A DNA stretch of 64,000 nucleotides from Micromonospora luteifusca (GTDB lineage: Bacteria > Actinomycetota > Actinomycetes > Mycobacteriales > Micromonosporaceae): positions 3,338,001 through 3,402,000 of the forward strand of contig NZ_JAFBBP010000001.1 of the NCBI RefSeq assembly GCF_016907275.1, in the 5' to 3' direction. Below are positions 28,181 through 49,508 of the stretch, in pieces. A program made the position numbers and the translations under genes. The notes under the pieces are model-generated. The model worked only from the letters and a program-made list of their open reading frames with translations. It was not told the DNA's origin and did no database searches. The first letter of the stretch is position 1; each line of letters starts with the position of its first letter.

Positions 28181-28192
28181 TGCGCTAAGTTG

Positions 28193-28223
28193 TTCTCAGA
28201 GCGAGATATTCTCAGAATGAGAG
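28193..28223 (+). promoter_or_regulatory. Tandem operators over the promoter of the four-gene operon
   Basis: TTCTCA-GAG-CGAGAT (28193-28207) and TTCTCA-GAA-TGAGAG (28209-28223; dyad TCTCA-GAA-TGAGA) are two similar sites whose starts are 16 bp apart. A -10 candidate TATTCT (28207-28212) lies between and inside them, so a bound repressor would block initiation. The nearest regulator is the Nudix protein encoded immediately downstream. Confidence 0.6.
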
Positions 28224-28230
28224 AGACGCG

Positions 28231-28983
28231 ATGAACGAGCAGGATTTCCTGGCCGCGTACGACCCCGGGGCCTACCCGTCGGTCGCCGTGACCGTCGACG
28301 TGGTGGCGCTGACCATCCGCGACGGCGCACTGCACCTGCTGCTGATCCAGCGCGGTCAGCCGCCCTTCGAGGGCCACTGGGCGCTGCCCGGCGGCTTCGT
28401 CCACCCCGACGAGGACCTGACCGCCGGCGCCCGACGGGAGCTGGCCGAGGAGACCGGGCTCGGGGGCGTTCGGCTGCGCCGCGTACACCTGGAGCAGTTG
28501 AGCAGCTATGGCGCCCCCGACCGCGACCCGCGGATGCGCGTCGTCTCGGTCGCCCACCTCGCGTTCGCCCCCGACCTGCCGGACCCGGCCGCCGGCACCG
28601 ATGCCGACGCGGCGATCTGGCTGCCGGTGACCGCGCTGACCAGCCGGCAGCTCGCCTTCGACCACAGCCGGATCATCGACGACGGGTTGGAGCGAGCGCG
28701 GTCGAAGCTGGAATACACCCCGCTCGCCACGCGATTCCTCGCCGCCGAGTTCACGATCAGCGAGCTGCGCGCCGTCTACGAGACGGTCTGGGGTCACCCT
28801 CTGCACGCCGGCAACTTCCACCGCAAGGTGCTCTCGGTGCCGGGCTTCGTGGAGAGCACGGGCACCAGCACCGAGCGCGGTGGCGCCCGGGGCGGCCCCC
28901 GCGCCCGGCTCTACCGGGCCGGCGACGCCCGGCTGCTGCACCCGGCGCTGCTGCGCCCCGCCCGTGAGGAGACGGTGCGGTGA
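28231..28983 (+). CDS. NrtR-like Nudix-domain transcriptional regulator
   Basis: A 250-residue protein. The Nudix fold (residues ~15-150) has an intact box: Gly55, Glu61, R69-E-L-x-E-E-x-G-L77. The C-terminal half contains the winged-helix signature of the NrtR group (FTISELRAVYETVWG then NFHRKVLS). NrtR proteins bind ADP-ribose or related nucleotides and regulate NAD genes; because the Nudix box is intact, hydrolysis is also possible. A ~30-residue Gly/Arg tail is additional. It is the first gene of a four-gene coupled operon and probably controls it through the tandem TTCTCA sites. Confidence 0.82.
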   Translation: MNEQDFLAAYDPGAYPSVAVTVDVVALTIRDGALHLLLIQRGQPPFEGHWALPGGFVHPDEDLTAGARRELAEETGLGGVRLRRVHLEQLSSYGAPDRDPRMRVVSVAHLAFAPDLPDPAAGTDADAAIWLPVTALTSRQLAFDHSRIIDDGLERARSKLEYTPLATRFLAAEFTISELRAVYETVWGHPLHAGNFHRKVLSVPGFVESTGTSTERGGARGGPRARLYRAGDARLLHPALLRPAREETVR

Positions 28984-29954
28984 GGACAGCGGCGGCCATC
29001 GGCTTGGTCGCGGCGGCCCGCACCGACGCCGACCTGTTCGGCACGGACCAGCCGGCCCGGCGCTACCGCGAGCTGGTCGCGGCCCTGCACCCCGACCGCC
29101 TGCCGGCCGACCCGACGGTACGCGCCGAAGCCCTCGACGCGTTCATCCACGTCACCACCCGGTGGCAGGCCCGGCAGGTCACCGTCCTCGGCGACTACCG
29201 CCTCGGCACGCCGGCCCACTCGGGCGACCTGGCCGACCTCTACGACGTCGGTGCCGACCAACTGCTCAAGCTCCCCCGACGGCCCACCGATAACGACCTG
29301 ATGGCCCGCGAGGCGCACGCCCTGCGCACCATCGCCGAGCGTGGCGACCCCCGCTACCTGCCGTACGTGCCCCGGCTGGTCGACGAATTCGCACACCGCG
29401 ACACCGCGACCGGCGCCGAACGGCGGATCAACGTGCTCGCCACCGCGCCCGGCCTGCACGACCTCGACGAGGTGCGGCGCGCGTACCCCGACGGGTTGGA
29501 CGCCCGGGACGTGGCCTGGATGTGGCGGCGGCTGCTGGTGGTGCTCGGCCTGGCCCACCGGGCGGGCGTGGTGCACGGCGCGGTCGTGCCCCGCCACGTG
29601 CTCATCGAACCGGACGCCCACGGCGTGGTGCTTGTCGACTGGTGCTTCTCCGCCCCTGTCGGGAGCACGGTCCCGGCGCTGGTGCCCGGCCACGACGCGG
29701 GGTGGTATCCGGAGGAGGTCCGCCGGAAGCGGCCCTGCGGGCCGGGCACCGACATCGCGATGGCCAGCCGCTGCATGAGCTGGCTGATGGGGCCGCGCGC
29801 ACCCCGCGAGCTGCACGCCTTCGCGCAGGGCTGCTGGCAACTCTCCCTGGGCTCGCGGCCCGACGACGCCTGGCGCCTGCTGCGCGAACTCAACCAGGTG
29901 CTGGACCGGCTCTACGGGCCACGCACCTTCCGACCCTTCACCCTCACCCCCTAA
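28980..29954 (+). CDS. J-domain plus pseudokinase-like protein
   Basis: A 324-residue protein. Residues ~18-65 resemble a short J-domain, with YRELVAALHPDR holding His37-Pro-Asp39, the motif that stimulates Hsp70 ATPases. Residues ~70-310 look like a protein-kinase fold: a Gly-containing loop, a candidate lysine (LLKLPR, Lys97), the catalytic-loop equivalent VVHGAVVPRHVLI, where HRD is replaced by HGA, and a metal Asp in VLVDW (Asp220). Loss of the catalytic Asp argues for a pseudokinase scaffold. It overlaps the nrtR-like stop (GTGA). Partners are unknown. Confidence 0.65.
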   Translation: MRTAAAIGLVAAARTDADLFGTDQPARRYRELVAALHPDRLPADPTVRAEALDAFIHVTTRWQARQVTVLGDYRLGTPAHSGDLADLYDVGADQLLKLPRRPTDNDLMAREAHALRTIAERGDPRYLPYVPRLVDEFAHRDTATGAERRINVLATAPGLHDLDEVRRAYPDGLDARDVAWMWRRLLVVLGLAHRAGVVHGAVVPRHVLIEPDAHGVVLVDWCFSAPVGSTVPALVPGHDAGWYPEEVRRKRPCGPGTDIAMASRCMSWLMGPRAPRELHAFAQGCWQLSLGSRPDDAWRLLRELNQVLDRLYGPRTFRPFTLTP

Positions 29955-29963
29955 GGAGCTGTC

Positions 29964-30923
29964 ATGGGCAGTGGAATCTGGTCCACCGACGTGTACGACG
30001 CCGCCGACCGCTACCGGCGCTCCACCGGCCGCAGCGCGTTCTCCTACAGCGACAGTGGAGCGCGCACCGTGCACCCCGCGCTCGACCCGCGGGACGCGAT
30101 GCGCGAGAGCCGCGACTCCGACGAGCACCCCCGGTCGACGCCCGTCGCGGTGCTGTTCGACGTGACCGGCTCGATGGGCAACGTGCCACGCGTCCTGCAG
30201 ACCAAGCTGCCGCAGCTGCTCGGGCTGCTGCAACGGCAGGGCTACGCCAGCGACCCGCAGATCATGTTCGGAGCGATCGGTGACGCCACCTGCGACCGGG
30301 TGCCGTTGCAGGTGGGCCAGTTCGAGTCGGACAACCGAATGGACGACGACCTCGGCCGGATCGTGCTGGAGGGCGGTGGCGGCGGGCAGATGAGCGAGTC
30401 GTACGAGTTGGCCATGTACTTCATGGCCCGGCACACCCGCACCGACAGTTGGGAGAAGCGCGGTCGGCGCGGCTACCTGTTCATCATCGGCGACGAACTG
30501 GCGTACCTGCGCGTCAAGGCCCGCGAGGTGGCCGGCCTGATCGGCGACGATCTCTCCGAGGACGTGCCGCTGCGGCAGGTCGTCGACGAGGTGACCCGCT
30601 GCTGGGACACCTACTACCTGCTCCCCGCCGGCAGCCACTACGCCGGCAACGCCAAGGTGCTCGACTTCTGGCGGGACCTGCTCGGGCAGAACACCGTCGT
30701 GCTCGACGACCTCGACGCGGTCTGCGAGACCATCGCGCTCACCATCGGCCTCGGCGAGCAGGCCATCGACCTGGACGAGGGCCTACGCGACCTGGACCGC
30801 GCCGGCTCTGGTGCCACCGGCACCGTGTCGAAGGCGCTGGCGCGTCTCGACCGGGGGCGGCGGGCCGAGGTGTCCACGCTGCCGGCGTTCCGCGACACCG
30901 CCGGTGGGGTGACCCGGCTGTGA
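29964..30923 (+). CDS. vWA-domain protein with MIDAS motif
   Basis: A 319-residue soluble protein starting MGSGIWSTDVYDAADRYRR, then a von Willebrand A fold from residue ~58. The MIDAS motif is D66-V-T68-G-S70-M, with a second acidic loop (GDATCDR) and GGGGGQMSESYELAMYF near 140. It has no signal peptide or membrane helix, so it is an intracellular vWA, probably a metal-dependent protein-interaction module. A strong AAGGAG ribosome site lies nine bases after the pseudokinase stop; its own stop overlaps the purA-like start. Confidence 0.8.
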   Translation: MGSGIWSTDVYDAADRYRRSTGRSAFSYSDSGARTVHPALDPRDAMRESRDSDEHPRSTPVAVLFDVTGSMGNVPRVLQTKLPQLLGLLQRQGYASDPQIMFGAIGDATCDRVPLQVGQFESDNRMDDDLGRIVLEGGGGGQMSESYELAMYFMARHTRTDSWEKRGRRGYLFIIGDELAYLRVKAREVAGLIGDDLSEDVPLRQVVDEVTRCWDTYYLLPAGSHYAGNAKVLDFWRDLLGQNTVVLDDLDAVCETIALTIGLGEQAIDLDEGLRDLDRAGSGATGTVSKALARLDRGRRAEVSTLPAFRDTAGGVTRL

Positions 30924-32182
30924 GGCACGTGGCGGTGGTCGACCTCGGCTACGGCGACGCCGGCAAGGGCACGGTGGTGGACTGGCTCTGCGCCACCCGC
31001 CCAGTGCACACGGTGGTGCGCTTCAACGGGGGCGCGCAGGCGGCGCACAACGTCGTGCTGCGCGATGGGCGGCACCACACGTTCGCGCAGTTCGGCGCCG
31101 GCACGTTCCATCCCGGTGTCCGTACGCACCTCTCGCGACACGTGGTGGTGGACCCGCTGGCACTGGCCGCCGAGGCCGACCACCTCGCCACCGTCGGGGT
31201 GCCCGACGCGCTCGACCGGCTGACCATCGACCGGGATGCGCTGCTCGCCACCCCGTACCACCGGGCCGCCAACCGGGCCCGGGAGATCGCCCGGGGAGCC
31301 GACCGGCACGGCTCCTGCGGGCTGGGGGTGGGCGAGACCGTCGCGTACGGTCTCGCTCACCCCGCCGACGCGCCCCGGGTCGGCGACTGCCGCCGCCCGG
31401 CGCTGCTGCGCCGCCGGCTGACCGCCCTGCGGGACCGGCTGACCGCCGAACTGGGCCCGCTGGACGCGCCACCGATCGAGGACTGCCTGCCCGCGTTCAC
31501 CGGGTTCGCCGGGCGGGTCGCGATCGTCGATGAGAGCTGGCTGGTCGGGGCGTTGCACGCCGGGACCTGCGTCTTCGAGGGCGCGCAGGGGGTGCTGCTC
31601 GACGAGTGGCACGGCTTCCACCCGTACACCACCTGGAGCACCACCACGTTCGCCAACGTCGACAGCCTGCTCGCCGAGGCGGGCCGCCCCGGCGACGTGA
31701 CCCGGATCGGGGTGCTCCGGGTGGTCACCACCCGGCACGGCCCCGGCCCGCTGGTGACCGAGGACCCGGCGCTGCCATTCGCCGACCCGCACAACCCGAC
31801 GAACCCGTGGCAGGGCCGGTTCCGGTTCGGCCACTTTGACGCGGTCGCCCACCGGTACGCCCTCGCCGCAGCCGGCGGGGTCGACGGCCTGGCGCTGACC
31901 CACCTCGACCTCGCCGGCCCCGACCTGCGGATCTGCCGCCGCTACGACACCACCGACCGGCTCACCCCGGGCCCGCCCGGCGACCTCGACCGGCAGGCCG
32001 CGCTCACCGCCCGCCTGCTGCGCTCCCGCCCGGTGTACGACGACCCGCCGGCGGACTGGGCGGAGGCGGTCCGCACGGAGCTGGACACACCGGTGGTGCT
32101 GACCTCGCACGGCCCCACCGCCGACGACAAGAAGACGATCGGCCCGCTGCTCGCCCCACCGGCCCTGGTCCGCTCAGCCTGA
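30920..32182 (+). CDS. Diverged adenylosuccinate-synthetase paralogue
   Basis: A 420-residue PurA-fold protein, clearly different from the genuine PurA at 47039. Asp13 and the GTP loop are kept as GYGDAGKGT (canonical GDEGKGK) and His43 aligns with the catalytic His (GGAQAAHN). The IMP-binding loop is changed to HGSCGLGVGE, the [14 protein letters not shown] box reads DEWHGFHPYTTWSTTT, and the Asp-binding TTGRxRR loop reads WQGRFRFGHFD. GTP-dependent ligation of an amino acid to a purine-like oxo group is plausible, but the substrate is probably not plain IMP. Phage PurZ shows that this fold can switch nucleotide. Last gene of the operon. Confidence 0.75.
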   Translation: MRHVAVVDLGYGDAGKGTVVDWLCATRPVHTVVRFNGGAQAAHNVVLRDGRHHTFAQFGAGTFHPGVRTHLSRHVVVDPLALAAEADHLATVGVPDALDRLTIDRDALLATPYHRAANRAREIARGADRHGSCGLGVGETVAYGLAHPADAPRVGDCRRPALLRRRLTALRDRLTAELGPLDAPPIEDCLPAFTGFAGRVAIVDESWLVGALHAGTCVFEGAQGVLLDEWHGFHPYTTWSTTTFANVDSLLAEAGRPGDVTRIGVLRVVTTRHGPGPLVTEDPALPFADPHNPTNPWQGRFRFGHFDAVAHRYALAAAGGVDGLALTHLDLAGPDLRICRRYDTTDRLTPGPPGDLDRQAALTARLLRSRPVYDDPPADWAEAVRTELDTPVVLTSHGPTADDKKTIGPLLAPPALVRSA

Positions 32183-33716: not shown

Positions 33717-33777
33717 CCGGTCGGCGCAAAGTCGGCGAAGCGCCACCGACCGTCGTCGAGCCGCCGAGCATGGGGGC

Positions 33778-34398
33778 ATGGACGCCCTGCTCGACCTCCT
33801 CCGTGGGACGGTCACGTCGCCGTGGGTGTACCTGGTGATCTTCGGGCTCACCGCGGTCGACGCGTTCTTCCCGGCGGTGCCGGGCGAGGCCGCGGTGATC
33901 ACCGCGGGGGTGCTCGCGGCGGACGGCGGGCACCCCGACCTGGTCCTGGTGATCGTGAGCGCCGCCGTCGGCGCGCTCGTCGGCGACCACGTCTCCTACG
34001 CCATCGGGCGGGGCGGAGGTGCCCGCCGGCTTTCCCGGCTGCCCGTCGGCAGCCGCCGACGGGCCAGCTCCGAGTGGGCCCGCCGGGCGGTGGACCGGCG
34101 CGGCGGGATCATCCTGACCACCAGCCGGTACGTGCCCGGCGGGCGGACCGCCGTCACCCTGACCATGGGCGCGGTGCGCTATCCCCGCCGGGCGTTCCTG
34201 CTGTACGACAGCATCGGGACGGTCACCTGGGCGGTGTACTGCGGGCTGCTCGGCTACTTCGGCGGGCTGGCCTTCGAACGTGACCCGGCGAAGGGGGTGC
34301 TGGTCGGCGTGGGGCTTGCGGTGGTCGTCACGTTCGGCCTGGAGGGGATCCGGTGGCTGCGTCGTCGAGCGCACCGCCGGGCCGCTTCCCGCCGCTGA
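33778..34398 (+). CDS. DedA/VTT family membrane protein (copy 1)
   Basis: A 206-residue polytopic protein: SPWVYLVIFGLTAVDAFFPAVPGE near residue 15 is the re-entrant/VTT start, GDHVSYAIGRGGG follows, and RYVPGGRTAVTLTMGAVRYP is the conserved Arg/Gly motif. DedA proteins act in lipid-carrier recycling or proton-dependent flipping of undecaprenyl or phosphatidylethanolamine lipids. Its close paralogue lies at 36379 on the other side of a two-component system. No ribosome site is obvious. Confidence 0.88.
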   Translation: MDALLDLLRGTVTSPWVYLVIFGLTAVDAFFPAVPGEAAVITAGVLAADGGHPDLVLVIVSAAVGALVGDHVSYAIGRGGGARRLSRLPVGSRRRASSEWARRAVDRRGGIILTTSRYVPGGRTAVTLTMGAVRYPRRAFLLYDSIGTVTWAVYCGLLGYFGGLAFERDPAKGVLVGVGLAVVVTFGLEGIRWLRRRAHRRAASRR

Positions 34399-34418
34399 CC
34401 GGCGTGGCGGCGGGCACG

Positions 34419-35060
34419 TCACAGCAGGTCGGCGTCGTACACCAGGATGGCCAACTGCACCCGGTTGCCCACATGGAGTTTCGCCAGCGCCCGGCTGACG
34501 TGCGCCTTCACGGTGGACTCGCTCATCGTCAACCGCCGGGCGATCTCCGCGTTGCCGTGCCCGCGCGCCACCTCCCGGACGATCTGCAACTCCCGGACGG
34601 TGAGCGGTGCGAGCCGTTCGCGGGCCGCGTCCCGGCGGGCCGGACCACGCTCGGCGAAAGAGTCGATCAAACGCCGGGTGACCGTCGGGGCGAGCATGGC
34701 GTTCCCGGCGGCCACCGTGCGGACGGCGGCGGCCAGGTCGCGGGGCGGGGTGTCCTTGAGCAGGAAGCCGACCGCGCCGACCCGGAGCGCCCGGTGCACG
34801 TACTCGTCGAGGTCGAAGGTGGTCAACATGATCACCTTCGCGCCGGCGGCGATCACCTCCGGCGCGGCGGTCAGCCCGTCGACACCCGGCATCCGCACGT
34901 CGAGCAGCACCACGTCGGGACGTAACCGGTGGGCCTGCTCCAGCGCGCCGGCACCGTCCGCCGCCTCACCGACGACCGTGATGTCCTCCGCCGCCTCCAG
35001 GATCAGCCGCAACCCGGCGCGGACCAGTTGCTCGTCGTCGACCACCACCACCCGAATCAC
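34419..35060 (-). CDS. LuxR-family response regulator
   Basis: A 213-residue NarL-type regulator. The receiver domain has acidic residues at VVDDEQL, the phospho-acceptor Asp in VVLLDVRMPG (near residue 53) and KDTPPRDL at the C-terminal lysine site. The LuxR helix-turn-helix is LTVRELQIVREVARGHGNAEIARRL with an SESTVKAHVSR recognition helix. Its start overlaps the histidine kinase stop (ATGA), so they form a coupled pair. Targets are unknown; the flanking dedA genes are candidates. Confidence 0.94.
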   Translation of the reverse strand: MIRVVVVDDEQLVRAGLRLILEAAEDITVVGEAADGAGALEQAHRLRPDVVLLDVRMPGVDGLTAAPEVIAAGAKVIMLTTFDLDEYVHRALRVGAVGFLLKDTPPRDLAAAVRTVAAGNAMLAPTVTRRLIDSFAERGPARRDAARERLAPLTVRELQIVREVARGHGNAEIARRLTMSESTVKAHVSRALAKLHVGNRVQLAILVYDADLL

Positions 35061-36208
35061 GCCACACCCGCCAGCGGGATCAGGGCCCGGACCAGGAAGC
35101 CGCCGTCCACGGACCTCGCCTCCAGCCGGCCGCCGAGCAGCTCCACCCGCTCCCGCAGCCCGAGCAGCCCCTGCCCGGCACCGGGCAGCGCCACCCCGCC
35201 CTCGGACGGTCCGTTACGGACCAGCACCTCCAGCCCATCGGGCAGGTAGCGCAGGCAGACGACAGTCTCGGCGTCGCCCGCATGCTTGCGCACGTTGGTC
35301 AACGCCTCCCGGACCACCCGGTACGCCGTGCGCCCCACCGTCGCCGGTAGCGCCGACGCGACACCCTCGTCCCGCCGGCACACCCGCAGCCCGGCGGTAC
35401 GGGACTCCCCGATCAGCTCGTCGAGCGCGTCGAGCCCGCGCTCGGGCACCACGGCCGGACCGGCCTGTCGCAGCACGCCCAGCACCTCGCGCAGGTCGGT
35501 GAGCGCCTGCCGACCGGTGGTACGGATCAGCGCGGCTGCCTCGACGGTCGCCGGCTCCACGGCGGTCACCTCCAGCGCCCCGGCATGGACCACCATCAAC
35601 GAGACCCGGTGCGCCACCACGTCGTGCATCTCCCGGGCGATCCGGGTCCGCTCCTCGGCACGGACCCGGTCGGCGCGGGCCTCCTGCTCACGTTCCAACC
35701 GCTCGGCCCGGTCCCGCAGGGCGGCGAGTGTGTCCCGGCGTGCCCGCACCCAGAGGCCGAAGACCAGCGGAAGCCCGACCAGTGAAACGCCGAGCATCAG
35801 CACGTTGCCGCTGGCCGCGGTGGTCATCCGGCGCACGCCGCCCACCTCCAGCCCGATCAGCACCCCGCCGGCCTGCACCACGGCCGCACCGGCGAGGAAG
35901 CCGGCGAGCCGCCGACCACGCAGCCGCAGACCCGCCTGGTAGGAGGCGACCACGCCGGCTGCTGCGGCGGCGAGCACCAGCCAGCCGACCGCCGCGGCCA
36001 GGAACAACGGCCAGCGGCGGGTCCGGAGCATGCCGGCAGCCCAACCGGAGAGCAGCGCGAGTACCAGTGCGACGGCACCCGGGAGCGGCGAGCGGACCCC
36101 GATGTCACCGGTCGCGCTGGCCCAGACCGCCGCCGCGACCGTTACGGCGAGCAGCAGCGGGCCGTACCGTTGGACGACTCGCCGCAGGGCGGCGGCGCTG
36201 GAGGCCAC
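35057..36208 (-). CDS. Sensor histidine kinase (HisKA_3 type)
   Basis: About 383 residues. An N-terminal membrane part with roughly six helices lacks a large extracytoplasmic sensor, suggesting intramembrane sensing. The dimerisation helix carries the phospho-His in IAREMHDVVAHRVS, and the ATPase domain has the N box (REALTNVRKHAGD) and G box (GAGQGLLGLRERV). GTG at 36208 follows TACGCT by six bases, a leaderless arrangement; another GTG seven codons upstream is possible. This layout resembles envelope-stress sensors of the LiaS/DesK type. Confidence 0.92.
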   Translation of the reverse strand: MASSAAALRRVVQRYGPLLLAVTVAAAVWASATGDIGVRSPLPGAVALVLALLSGWAAGMLRTRRWPLFLAAAVGWLVLAAAAAGVVASYQAGLRLRGRRLAGFLAGAAVVQAGGVLIGLEVGGVRRMTTAASGNVLMLGVSLVGLPLVFGLWVRARRDTLAALRDRAERLEREQEARADRVRAEERTRIAREMHDVVAHRVSLMVVHAGALEVTAVEPATVEAAALIRTTGRQALTDLREVLGVLRQAGPAVVPERGLDALDELIGESRTAGLRVCRRDEGVASALPATVGRTAYRVVREALTNVRKHAGDAETVVCLRYLPDGLEVLVRNGPSEGGVALPGAGQGLLGLRERVELLGGRLEARSVDGGFLVRALIPLAGVA

Positions 36209-36214
36209 GCAGCG

Positions 36215-36220
36215 AGCGTA
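36215..36220 (-). promoter_or_regulatory. Predicted -10 for a leaderless kinase transcript
   Basis: TACGCT on the minus strand, six bases before GTG 36208. If transcription starts at this G, the upstream GTG at 36229 cannot be used. Confidence 0.5.
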
Positions 36221-36378
36221 GGGCTCCACGGCCGGGTCGGCCCACCCCGCGCCGCCGGACCCGGGTGAGCTGGGGGAAGACCCCTACCCGTCGTCCGGGC
36301 CGGCCGATACCTAAGTAGTGGCGCCCGCCTGACCTCTGGGCGATGGCAGGAGTCGCCGCCCACATCAGCATCGGGACC

Positions 36379-37038
36379 ATGGATCTACTCAACCTGCTGC
36401 ACGAGACGATGTCCTCGCCCTGGGTGTACCTGGCGATCTTCGCGATCGCGGTGCTCGACGGTTTCTTTCCCGTGGTGCCGAGCGAGACGGCAGTGATCAC
36501 GGCAGGGGTGTTCGCGGCTTCCGGCGCGCCGTACCTGCCCGCGGTGATCCTGGTGGCCGCCGCCGGGGCGCTGGTCGGCGACCACATCTCGTACGCCATC
36601 GGACGGGCCGGTGGAGCGCGACTGCTCGACCGGCTGCCGCCCGACGGTCGACGCCGGGCCGCCGCCGACTGGGCCCGCCGGGGGATCGCGACGCGCGGCG
36701 GCCTGATCCTCACCGTGGCCCGCTACGTGCCGGGCGGTCGGACGGCGGTCACCCTCACCATGGGCGCGGTGCACTATCCCCGGCGACGGTTCCTGGCGTT
36801 CGACGCGCTCGCCGCCGGATCGTGGGGGCTCTACTCCGCGCTGGTCGGATACGTCGGCGGGCTGGCCTTCGAGCAGGACCCGCTCCGCGGTCTCCTGCTG
36901 GGTCTGGGCCTCGCCCTGACGGTGACGTTGATCGTCGAGGTGGTTCGTTGGCTCCGCGGGCATCCGGAGCGGGCCGGCGAGCCGGGCACCGACGCGGTCT
37001 CCGCCGGGACCGTCAGTCGGCAGGCGGGCGCCAGGTGA
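36379..37038 (+). CDS. DedA/VTT family membrane protein (copy 2)
   Basis: A 219-residue paralogue of the protein at 33778, sharing SPWVYLxIF, FFPxVPxExAVITAGV, ALVGDHxSYAIGR and RYVPGGRTAVTLTMGAV. The two copies flank a two-component system, a sign of local duplication. The ATG at 36379 matches the start of the paralogue and is preceded by CAGCATCGGGACC, very like the region before the YbjQ start. Its 3' end overlaps the convergent tetR gene by 26 bases. Confidence 0.87.
   Translation: MDLLNLLHETMSSPWVYLAIFAIAVLDGFFPVVPSETAVITAGVFAASGAPYLPAVILVAAAGALVGDHISYAIGRAGGARLLDRLPPDGRRRAAADWARRGIATRGGLILTVARYVPGGRTAVTLTMGAVHYPRRRFLAFDALAAGSWGLYSALVGYVGGLAFEQDPLRGLLLGLGLALTVTLIVEVVRWLRGHPERAGEPGTDAVSAGTVSRQAGAR

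Positions 37039-47038: not shown

Positions 47039-49508
<2,470 letters not shown>

Follow-up and report, generated by a model that had tools for sequence, protein, structure and literature searches.

Several described systems resemble parts of the locus discussed here, a four-gene operon in a 64,000-nucleotide stretch of the genome of Micromonospora luteifusca (contig NZ_JAFBBP010000001.1, positions 3,338,001 to 3,402,000 of the forward strand; from here on, the window). The operon encodes an NrtR-like regulator, a J-domain/pseudokinase (J/pk), a vWA protein and a PurA-like protein that is predicted to be a ligase. TerY-P triads also have a vWA protein beside a kinase or chaperone. The operon differs from these triads, and from the MoxR-vWA pairs that share this likeness, in that no PP2C or MoxR is among its four conserved genes, the partner is PurA-like and the kinase has no catalytic Asp. 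MoxR-vWA pairs are treated in the accessible part of PMC7824862, in which DNAJ proteins of jumbo phages are also predicted to recruit host HSP70. ARG-centred ADP-ribose conflict systems, predicted in the accessible part of PMC9503650, have a Nudix-helix-turn-helix regulator and a vWA protein in common with the operon, and the vWA protein is called a peptide-binding chaperone there. In contrast to these systems as set out in that part, none of the four conserved genes of the operon encodes an ADP-ribosylglycohydrolase, Macro or phosphatase protein, and a PurA-like gene is present instead; no Pfam match to ADP-ribosylglycohydrolase was obtained among the four proteins. PurZ, from 2-aminoadenine phages, is a phage-borne relative of PurA. 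In the accessible part of PMC12884076, 481 viral PF00709 proteins are counted, of which the PurZ group comprises 151 sequences; Ser replaces Asp13 in 147 phage PurZ, and the remaining viral proteins are not described in that part. In the gene lists seen, phage Pinkcreek has a kinase and a PurA-like gene (PMC9476963, in part), and Vi01-like phages have a vWA protein along with a putative adenylosuccinate synthase, two candidate kin of the pair described here (PMC10892097, in part). No description of the module was found in the open PMC papers searched, most subscription papers lying outside that search.

The operon belongs to a real, widespread and phage-shared module for which no described counterpart was found. 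At about even confidence, we regard it as a ligase module shared with phages, which would have been captured in actinobacterial chromosomes under its own NrtR-type autorepressor and would combine a GTP-dependent purine-type ligase with a vWA partner. The original prediction, made from the letters of the window, described four coupled genes encoding an NrtR-like regulator, a J-domain/pseudokinase, a MIDAS (metal ion-dependent adhesion site) vWA protein and a diverged PurA, beside a separate genuine purA. Both points are borne out. All four genes lie on the + strand, genes 1 and 2 as well as genes 3 and 4 share GTGA overlaps, and genes 2 and 3 are 9 bp apart. In addition, the 7.16-Mb genome, which is a single contig, has two PF00709 matches, namely the operon copy and the canonical purA (Table 1). 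The gene-neighbourhood survey across actinobacteria that had been proposed was run by scanning genome contigs with the PurA-like protein, and the best 80 of 325 confirmed PurA-like relatives were read as loci. PurA-like is present in 80 of these, vWA in 78, NrtR in 78 and J/pk in 76, and all four occur together in 76/80, so that a lack of co-occurrence is ruled out. In the four incomplete loci, J/pk was not found (L034, L047) or the contig begins at the last gene (L055, L064). Spacing of at most 30 bp is seen at the first, second and third junctions of 69, 71 and 58 of the 76 complete loci, respectively. The four-gene set is no chance neighbourhood.

The surroundings of the operon are conserved over shorter distances than the operon itself. 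No fifth gene conserved beyond family level was seen when 19 loci were compared and 7 of them listed. Among those 7, the Thermomonospora locus L063 and three to four Actinomadura loci have several flanking frames in common. Within the Micromonospora group, 45 loci (every one except L047 and L050, with contig ends truncating some) share flanking genes with the window, as do three Asanoa loci, the shared genes being mostly thiolase, SDR and hotdog genes before the operon. Together with the Thermomonospora-Actinomadura case, this indicates that flank conservation is a matter within families. PurA-like relatives that are at least 90% identical are all from Micromonospora. Residence of the chromosomal operon in a prophage is unsupported, since these flanking genes recur across the Micromonospora-group and Asanoa loci. 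The vWA gene is patchily distributed and was found in at least 82/150 genomes of the same family, at least 32/295 of the class and at least 2/296 of the phylum, all lower bounds as the best candidates per genome were scored. Of the 7999 candidates scored, clustered at 90%, the vWA family accounts for 7274 proteins with E values of 0.001 or lower.

Viruses and plasmids carry the same genes in other proportions. A scan of IMG/VR with a PurA-like profile gave 208 confirmed loci, and in the best 80 of these a vWA gene lies within 6 kb in 77/80 and a J/pk gene in 50/80; two of the three loci without vWA sit at contig edges. From the reading of these loci onwards, the PurA profile contained the canonical PurA L001. 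The reciprocal scan with a vWA profile gave 52 loci, with PurA-like in 49 and J/pk in 38. The two scans have many contigs in common, and some IMG/VR contigs may be cellular DNA under a wrong label. For some loci, a viral nature is supported by capsid and terminase genes nearby. When 144 phage and plasmid loci are reduced to 104 non-redundant ones, vWA is present in 101, PurA-like in 100, J/pk in 68 and NrtR-like in 14, and among the 97 non-redundant viral loci a match to the NrtR profile is rare (7/97). In GenBank, 207 phage records have the vWA gene: 188 of Mycobacterium phages, 10 of Rhizobium phages, 6 of Vibrio phages and 3 others. In Mycobacterium phage Gizmo (Bxz1 species), the gene order is kinase, vWA, small gene and PurA-like, and in the Vibrio phages phiKT1024 and Va1 and the Rhizobium phage RHph_Y65, vWA is followed by PurA-like. 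The phage PurA-like copies are annotated as adenylosuccinate synthetase. Of the 21 plasmid records with vWA, eight loci were read, and an NrtR-like gene is present in seven of them: downstream in two Rhodococcus plasmids and Tsukamurella, and divergent in Acetobacter, Agrobacterium, R. leguminosarum and Rhodovulum. The Variovorax plasmid locus has no NrtR-like gene in reach. With the leading position in chromosomes, the regulator thus occurs in three arrangements, which is good evidence that its link to the module is functional in cells. The chromosomal foursome, the co-inheritance, the NrtR-type regulator and the PurA paralogue with rewritten substrate loops of the original prediction all stood, whereas the sharing of vWA and PurA-like with phages, the greater dispensability of J/pk and NrtR there, and the near-obligate pairing and near-invariant N-terminus of the vWA protein had been overlooked. 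The original prediction is thus supported in part; its ADP-ribose ligand, stress or defence role, aminoacylated purine product and purely scaffolding J/pk and vWA proteins are hypothetical.

Other genes were observed near some of these loci. In six viral contigs (L117, L121, L124, L127, L128 and L196), NrtR, NAMPT-like, vWA, PurA-like and J/pk genes are clustered, and L124 additionally carries Nuc_deoxyrib_tr, dNMP-kinase-like and cytidylyltransferase-like genes. A TROVE-annotated gene and a NADAR gene flank the vWA-PurA pair of a Vibrio phage (L154, 6195-14074). In a Rhizobium phage (L158, 2237-6245), phosphoesterase, PRTase_3 and Nudix genes lie a few kb upstream of the pair, and we take the PRTase_3 gene to recall Ter-type clusters for nucleoside-like metabolites. 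In the Rhodovulum plasmid (L268), the NrtR-like, J/pk and vWA genes are near an IS3 transposase and PurA-like is not within reach.

The PurA-like protein matches PF00709 (E 1.5e-57) and stays below the cut-offs of both PurA equivalogs (PRK01117.1, 146.7 versus 402 bits; TIGR00184, 112.3 versus 395.55 bits) and of the NCBIfam PurZ family (36.6 versus 300 bits). It shares with PurA the sequence family, the GTP loop GDxGKG and the residues Asp13, His41, Gln224, Thr239 and Asp333. In the module rows (counts exclude L001), Asp13 is kept in 141/141 aligned rows, Lys16 in 142/142 and His41 in 144/144, confirming that the GTP loop and the catalytic Asp and His survive, and Asp13 is kept where PurZ has Ser. 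In contrast to PurA, Thr129 is replaced by Cys (138/144 rows), Val273 by His (139/139 aligned rows), Thr300-Thr301 by Trp-Gln and Lys331 by His, Cys or Asn. The TTGRxRR aspartate loop of PurA is replaced by a WQGxFR-type loop that is one residue shorter, with Gln in 139/139 and Trp, Phe or Tyr in 137/139 aligned rows. The inosine monophosphate (IMP) and aspartate loops are therefore rewritten across the family, as had been claimed for the window. A further difference from PurA is the near-obligate vWA neighbour. The protein also matches phrog_1211, which PHROGs labels '2-aminooxy adenylosuccinate synthetase'; as it is a non-PurZ family that matches it, this label looks misleading.

The module PurA-like proteins form one clade against three canonical PurA in a quick tree with 120 rows (Shimodaira-Hasegawa approximate likelihood ratio test, 100). 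Viral rows span this clade, and the 20 chromosomal, three actinobacterial plasmid and five viral rows form an inner clade (98). We read this as capture of the chromosomal copies from a phage or mobile pool.

The predicted model of the vWA protein matches integrin I domains, and its sequence matches phrog_2971, of unknown function. Both the fold and the MIDAS motif are present, and the Asp, Thr and Ser of the motif are kept in 144/144 aligned rows, while none of 17 members matches a Pfam vWA family at E up to 1. In front of this fold lies a tail, Met-Gly-x3-[Trp/Phe/Tyr], which is outside the matched fold and has very low model confidence (predicted local distance difference test, 34). The tail pattern is found at the start codon in 250/257 vWA proteins, 236 of these 250 with a Shine-Dalgarno-like site, and 112 non-redundant tail rows were taken from the 250. 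The other seven comprise two partial proteins, three with Met-Gly and two with Ile-Gly (L134 and L231), where the usual start codon is absent. The block of the first six residues has 3.12 bits including the start Met. The pattern is kept in 40/44 loci without J/pk, so J/pk is not the reason for the tail, and the PurA-like ligase is the only near-obligate vWA neighbour, which leads to the proposal that the tail may enter the ligase.

In a fold search, J/pk matches kinases and chimeras of J domains with protein kinase A (J-PKA), and it matches phrog_3043 ('kinase', E 3e-42). The HPD motif of J domains is present in 81/81 aligned bacterial rows, and its His in 32/34 aligned other rows. The window protein scores below the Pfam DnaJ cut-off (12 versus 27.8 bits), and this family matches 14/17 members at E up to 1, at best 0.00024. 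At the position of the HRD Asp-containing motif of kinases, Ala is found in 86/86 bacterial and 34/42 other rows, and Asp in 1/128.

The regulator shares with NrtR and AraR the combination of Nudix and NrtR winged helix; Pfam NUDIX and NrtR_WHD are both over their cut-offs, and a profile search gives AraR and Nudix-family structures. It is below the NCBIfam NtrR equivalog cut-off (137.4 versus 400 bits). It differs from NrtR/AraR regulators in its intact Nudix box, in which E61, R69, E73, E74 and G76 are invariant in 17 aligned rows, and in its predicted operator of two CTC-N5-GAG dyads with a 16-bp period, matched exactly at the operon and nowhere else in the 7.16-Mb genome. All 12 fixed bases are kept in 71/77 upstream regions and one mismatch occurs in 6/77 (window included; L071 with its misplaced start, L011 at a contig edge, and L055 and L064, which have no gene 1, are left out). 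Shuffled upstream regions (n=385) never had fewer than two mismatches. It is natural to infer that the NrtR-like protein binds this tandem operator and would thereby autoregulate the operon. A wider regulon was rejected, six one-mismatch sites in the same genome being no more than the seven of a reversed-pattern control. No operator with at most one mismatch was found in 13 plasmid and phage loci. In locus L058, the NrtR-like frame extends beyond the point where it normally stops, giving a 248-base overlap with gene 2, which may be an assembly frameshift.

Table 1. Features of the operon and of the canonical purA, in positions of the window.
Feature	Position	Strand	Basis or remark
Predicted tandem operator, two CTC-N5-GAG dyads, 16-bp period, upstream of gene 1	28195..28221	+	
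Gene 1, NrtR-like regulator (Nudix sensor and NrtR winged helix)	28231..28983	+	Pfam NUDIX and NrtR_WHD
Intact Nudix box, NrtR-like residues 55-76	28393..28458	+	translation
Gene 2, J-domain/pseudokinase (J/pk)	28980..29954	+	fold search; phrog_3043
J-domain HPD motif, J/pk residues 37-39	29088..29096	+	
HGA replacing kinase HRD, J/pk residues 199-201	29574..29582	+	catalytic Asp lost
Gene 3, vWA protein, near-obligate neighbour of the PurA-like gene	29964..30923	+	model; phrog_2971
N-terminal tail Met-Gly-x3-[Trp/Phe/Tyr], vWA residues 1-6	29964..29981	+	
MIDAS D-x-T-x-S, vWA residues 66-70	30159..30173	+	
Gene 4, PurA-like ligase (predicted)	30920..32182	+	PF00709; phrog_1211
GTP loop GDAGKG with catalytic Asp13 and Lys16	30953..30970	+	
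HGSCG at the PurA IMP loop, Thr129 to Cys133	31307..31321	+	
RHG at PurA Arg272-Val273, Val to His	31733..31741	+	
WQG at the PurA aspartate loop (Thr300-Thr301-Gly302)	31808..31816	+	
Canonical purA	47069..48316	-	PF00709

Downstream of the operon (33760-37038 of the window), a two-component pair lies between two DedA-like membrane protein genes, as named by eye.

For the ligase module, we infer the chemistry, the contacts, the ligand and the chaperone role as follows. The PurA-like protein probably phosphorylates the 6-oxygen of a purine-type substrate with GTP, and an amine other than free aspartate would then probably displace the 6-phosphate. The vWA protein would act as its near-obligate partner, whose N-terminal tail, flexible and with a glycine, probably extends to the active site of the ligase, serving there as the amine acceptor or contributing to the substrate pocket. 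Many phage loci lack J/pk, whose probable task is to bring in host Hsp70 so that the vWA-ligase pair is folded or loaded. NrtR may repress the operon until a small ligand accumulates, one that would resemble ADP-ribose, judging by the family of the regulator. As to purpose, our first guess is that the module lets large phages overcome a host barrier based on nucleotides.

Multiple points weigh against this reading. The ligase activity is predicted from sequence, and many of the residues concerned would also be retained in a GTP-binding switch. The roles of the PurA sites other than Asp13 are presumed. Gly2 is part of the definition of the tail pattern, and once the start Met is set aside, the tail is no more conserved than the folded core (about 2.7 bits versus 2.5-2.8 for core blocks). 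At four phage or plasmid loci (L120, L150, L151 and L268), vWA has no PurA-like gene in reach, and three of these keep the Met-Gly start. For the capture, the weak outgroup of the tree is the main doubt, as 3/20 canonical PurA candidates passed the filter and 45/117 inner branches are under 80. Finally, a link to NAD in phages through NAMPT is rejected, as NAMPT neighbours are not significantly above an RtcB control (10/97 versus 3/71, p 0.24).

Other explanations have to be considered. The vWA and PurA-like proteins could form a nucleotide-gated switch or chaperone pair without a purine product, in which GTP drives a conformational change and the clients of vWA and J/pk are peptides or damaged proteins. 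The peptide-binding vWA chaperone of the predicted ADP-ribose systems (PMC9503650, in part) and the predicted HSP70 recruitment by jumbo-phage DNAJ proteins (PMC7824862, in part) agree with this, as do the pseudokinase nature of J/pk and the replaced PurA substrate loops. A pure switch would not need the catalytic Asp13 and His41, which are kept in every aligned row in addition to the GTP loop, and we consider this explanation unlikely. It is likewise unlikely that the module acts in an NAD/ADP-ribose conflict, where it would detoxify or rebuild a derivative of ADP-ribose or NAD and so serve cells as a defence against phages, and phages as a counter to defences that consume NAD. Such a role would explain the NrtR-type regulator of the cell-borne copies, the NADAR gene near the pair in Vibrio phage phiKT1024 and the likeness to predicted systems with a Nudix regulator and a vWA chaperone (PMC9503650, in part), and NAMPT is the most recurrent other neighbour (10/104 phage and plasmid loci; other families at most five). 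Against it stand the NAMPT comparison with RtcB given above and the finding that, of 61 NAMPT loci, three have PurA-like and two have vWA; single-protein scans with Thy1, terminase and NAMPT (2, 1 and 5 loci) were too specific as controls. In PADLOC, neither vWA nor PurA-like had a match, and the matches of NrtR-like and J/pk were weak (MkoA and PD-T4-6 kinases and candidate PDC-S07). A purine-protein conjugate, in which the alpha-amine of vWA Gly2, after Met removal, would replace aspartate and be joined by the PurA-like protein to C6 of a purine nucleotide, is quite doubtful; if true, the vWA protein would be a nucleotide carrier used by phages and captured by actinobacteria. It is very improbable that the protein is an ordinary second PurA or a PurZ making adenylosuccinate or 2-aminoadenine nucleotides: despite the PF00709 match and the annotation of the phage copies, plain PurA or PurZ identity is rejected on scores far under both cut-offs and on residues, with the IMP and aspartate loops replaced family-wide and Asp13 in place of the Ser of phage PurZ (PMC12884076, in part), and a real purA is present.

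The module in M. luteifusca is part of a larger distribution: the rewired ligase fold paired with vWA occurs in phage isolates from three host genera, in numerous viral contigs from metagenomes and in actinobacterial chromosomes, and is also found on plasmids of actinobacteria and proteobacteria. In Micromonospora, a culturable genus, it is present as a small operator-controlled operon, which makes it directly testable. If the ligase yields a new nucleotide or a protein-nucleotide conjugate, this would add chemistry to the biology of phages and their hosts.

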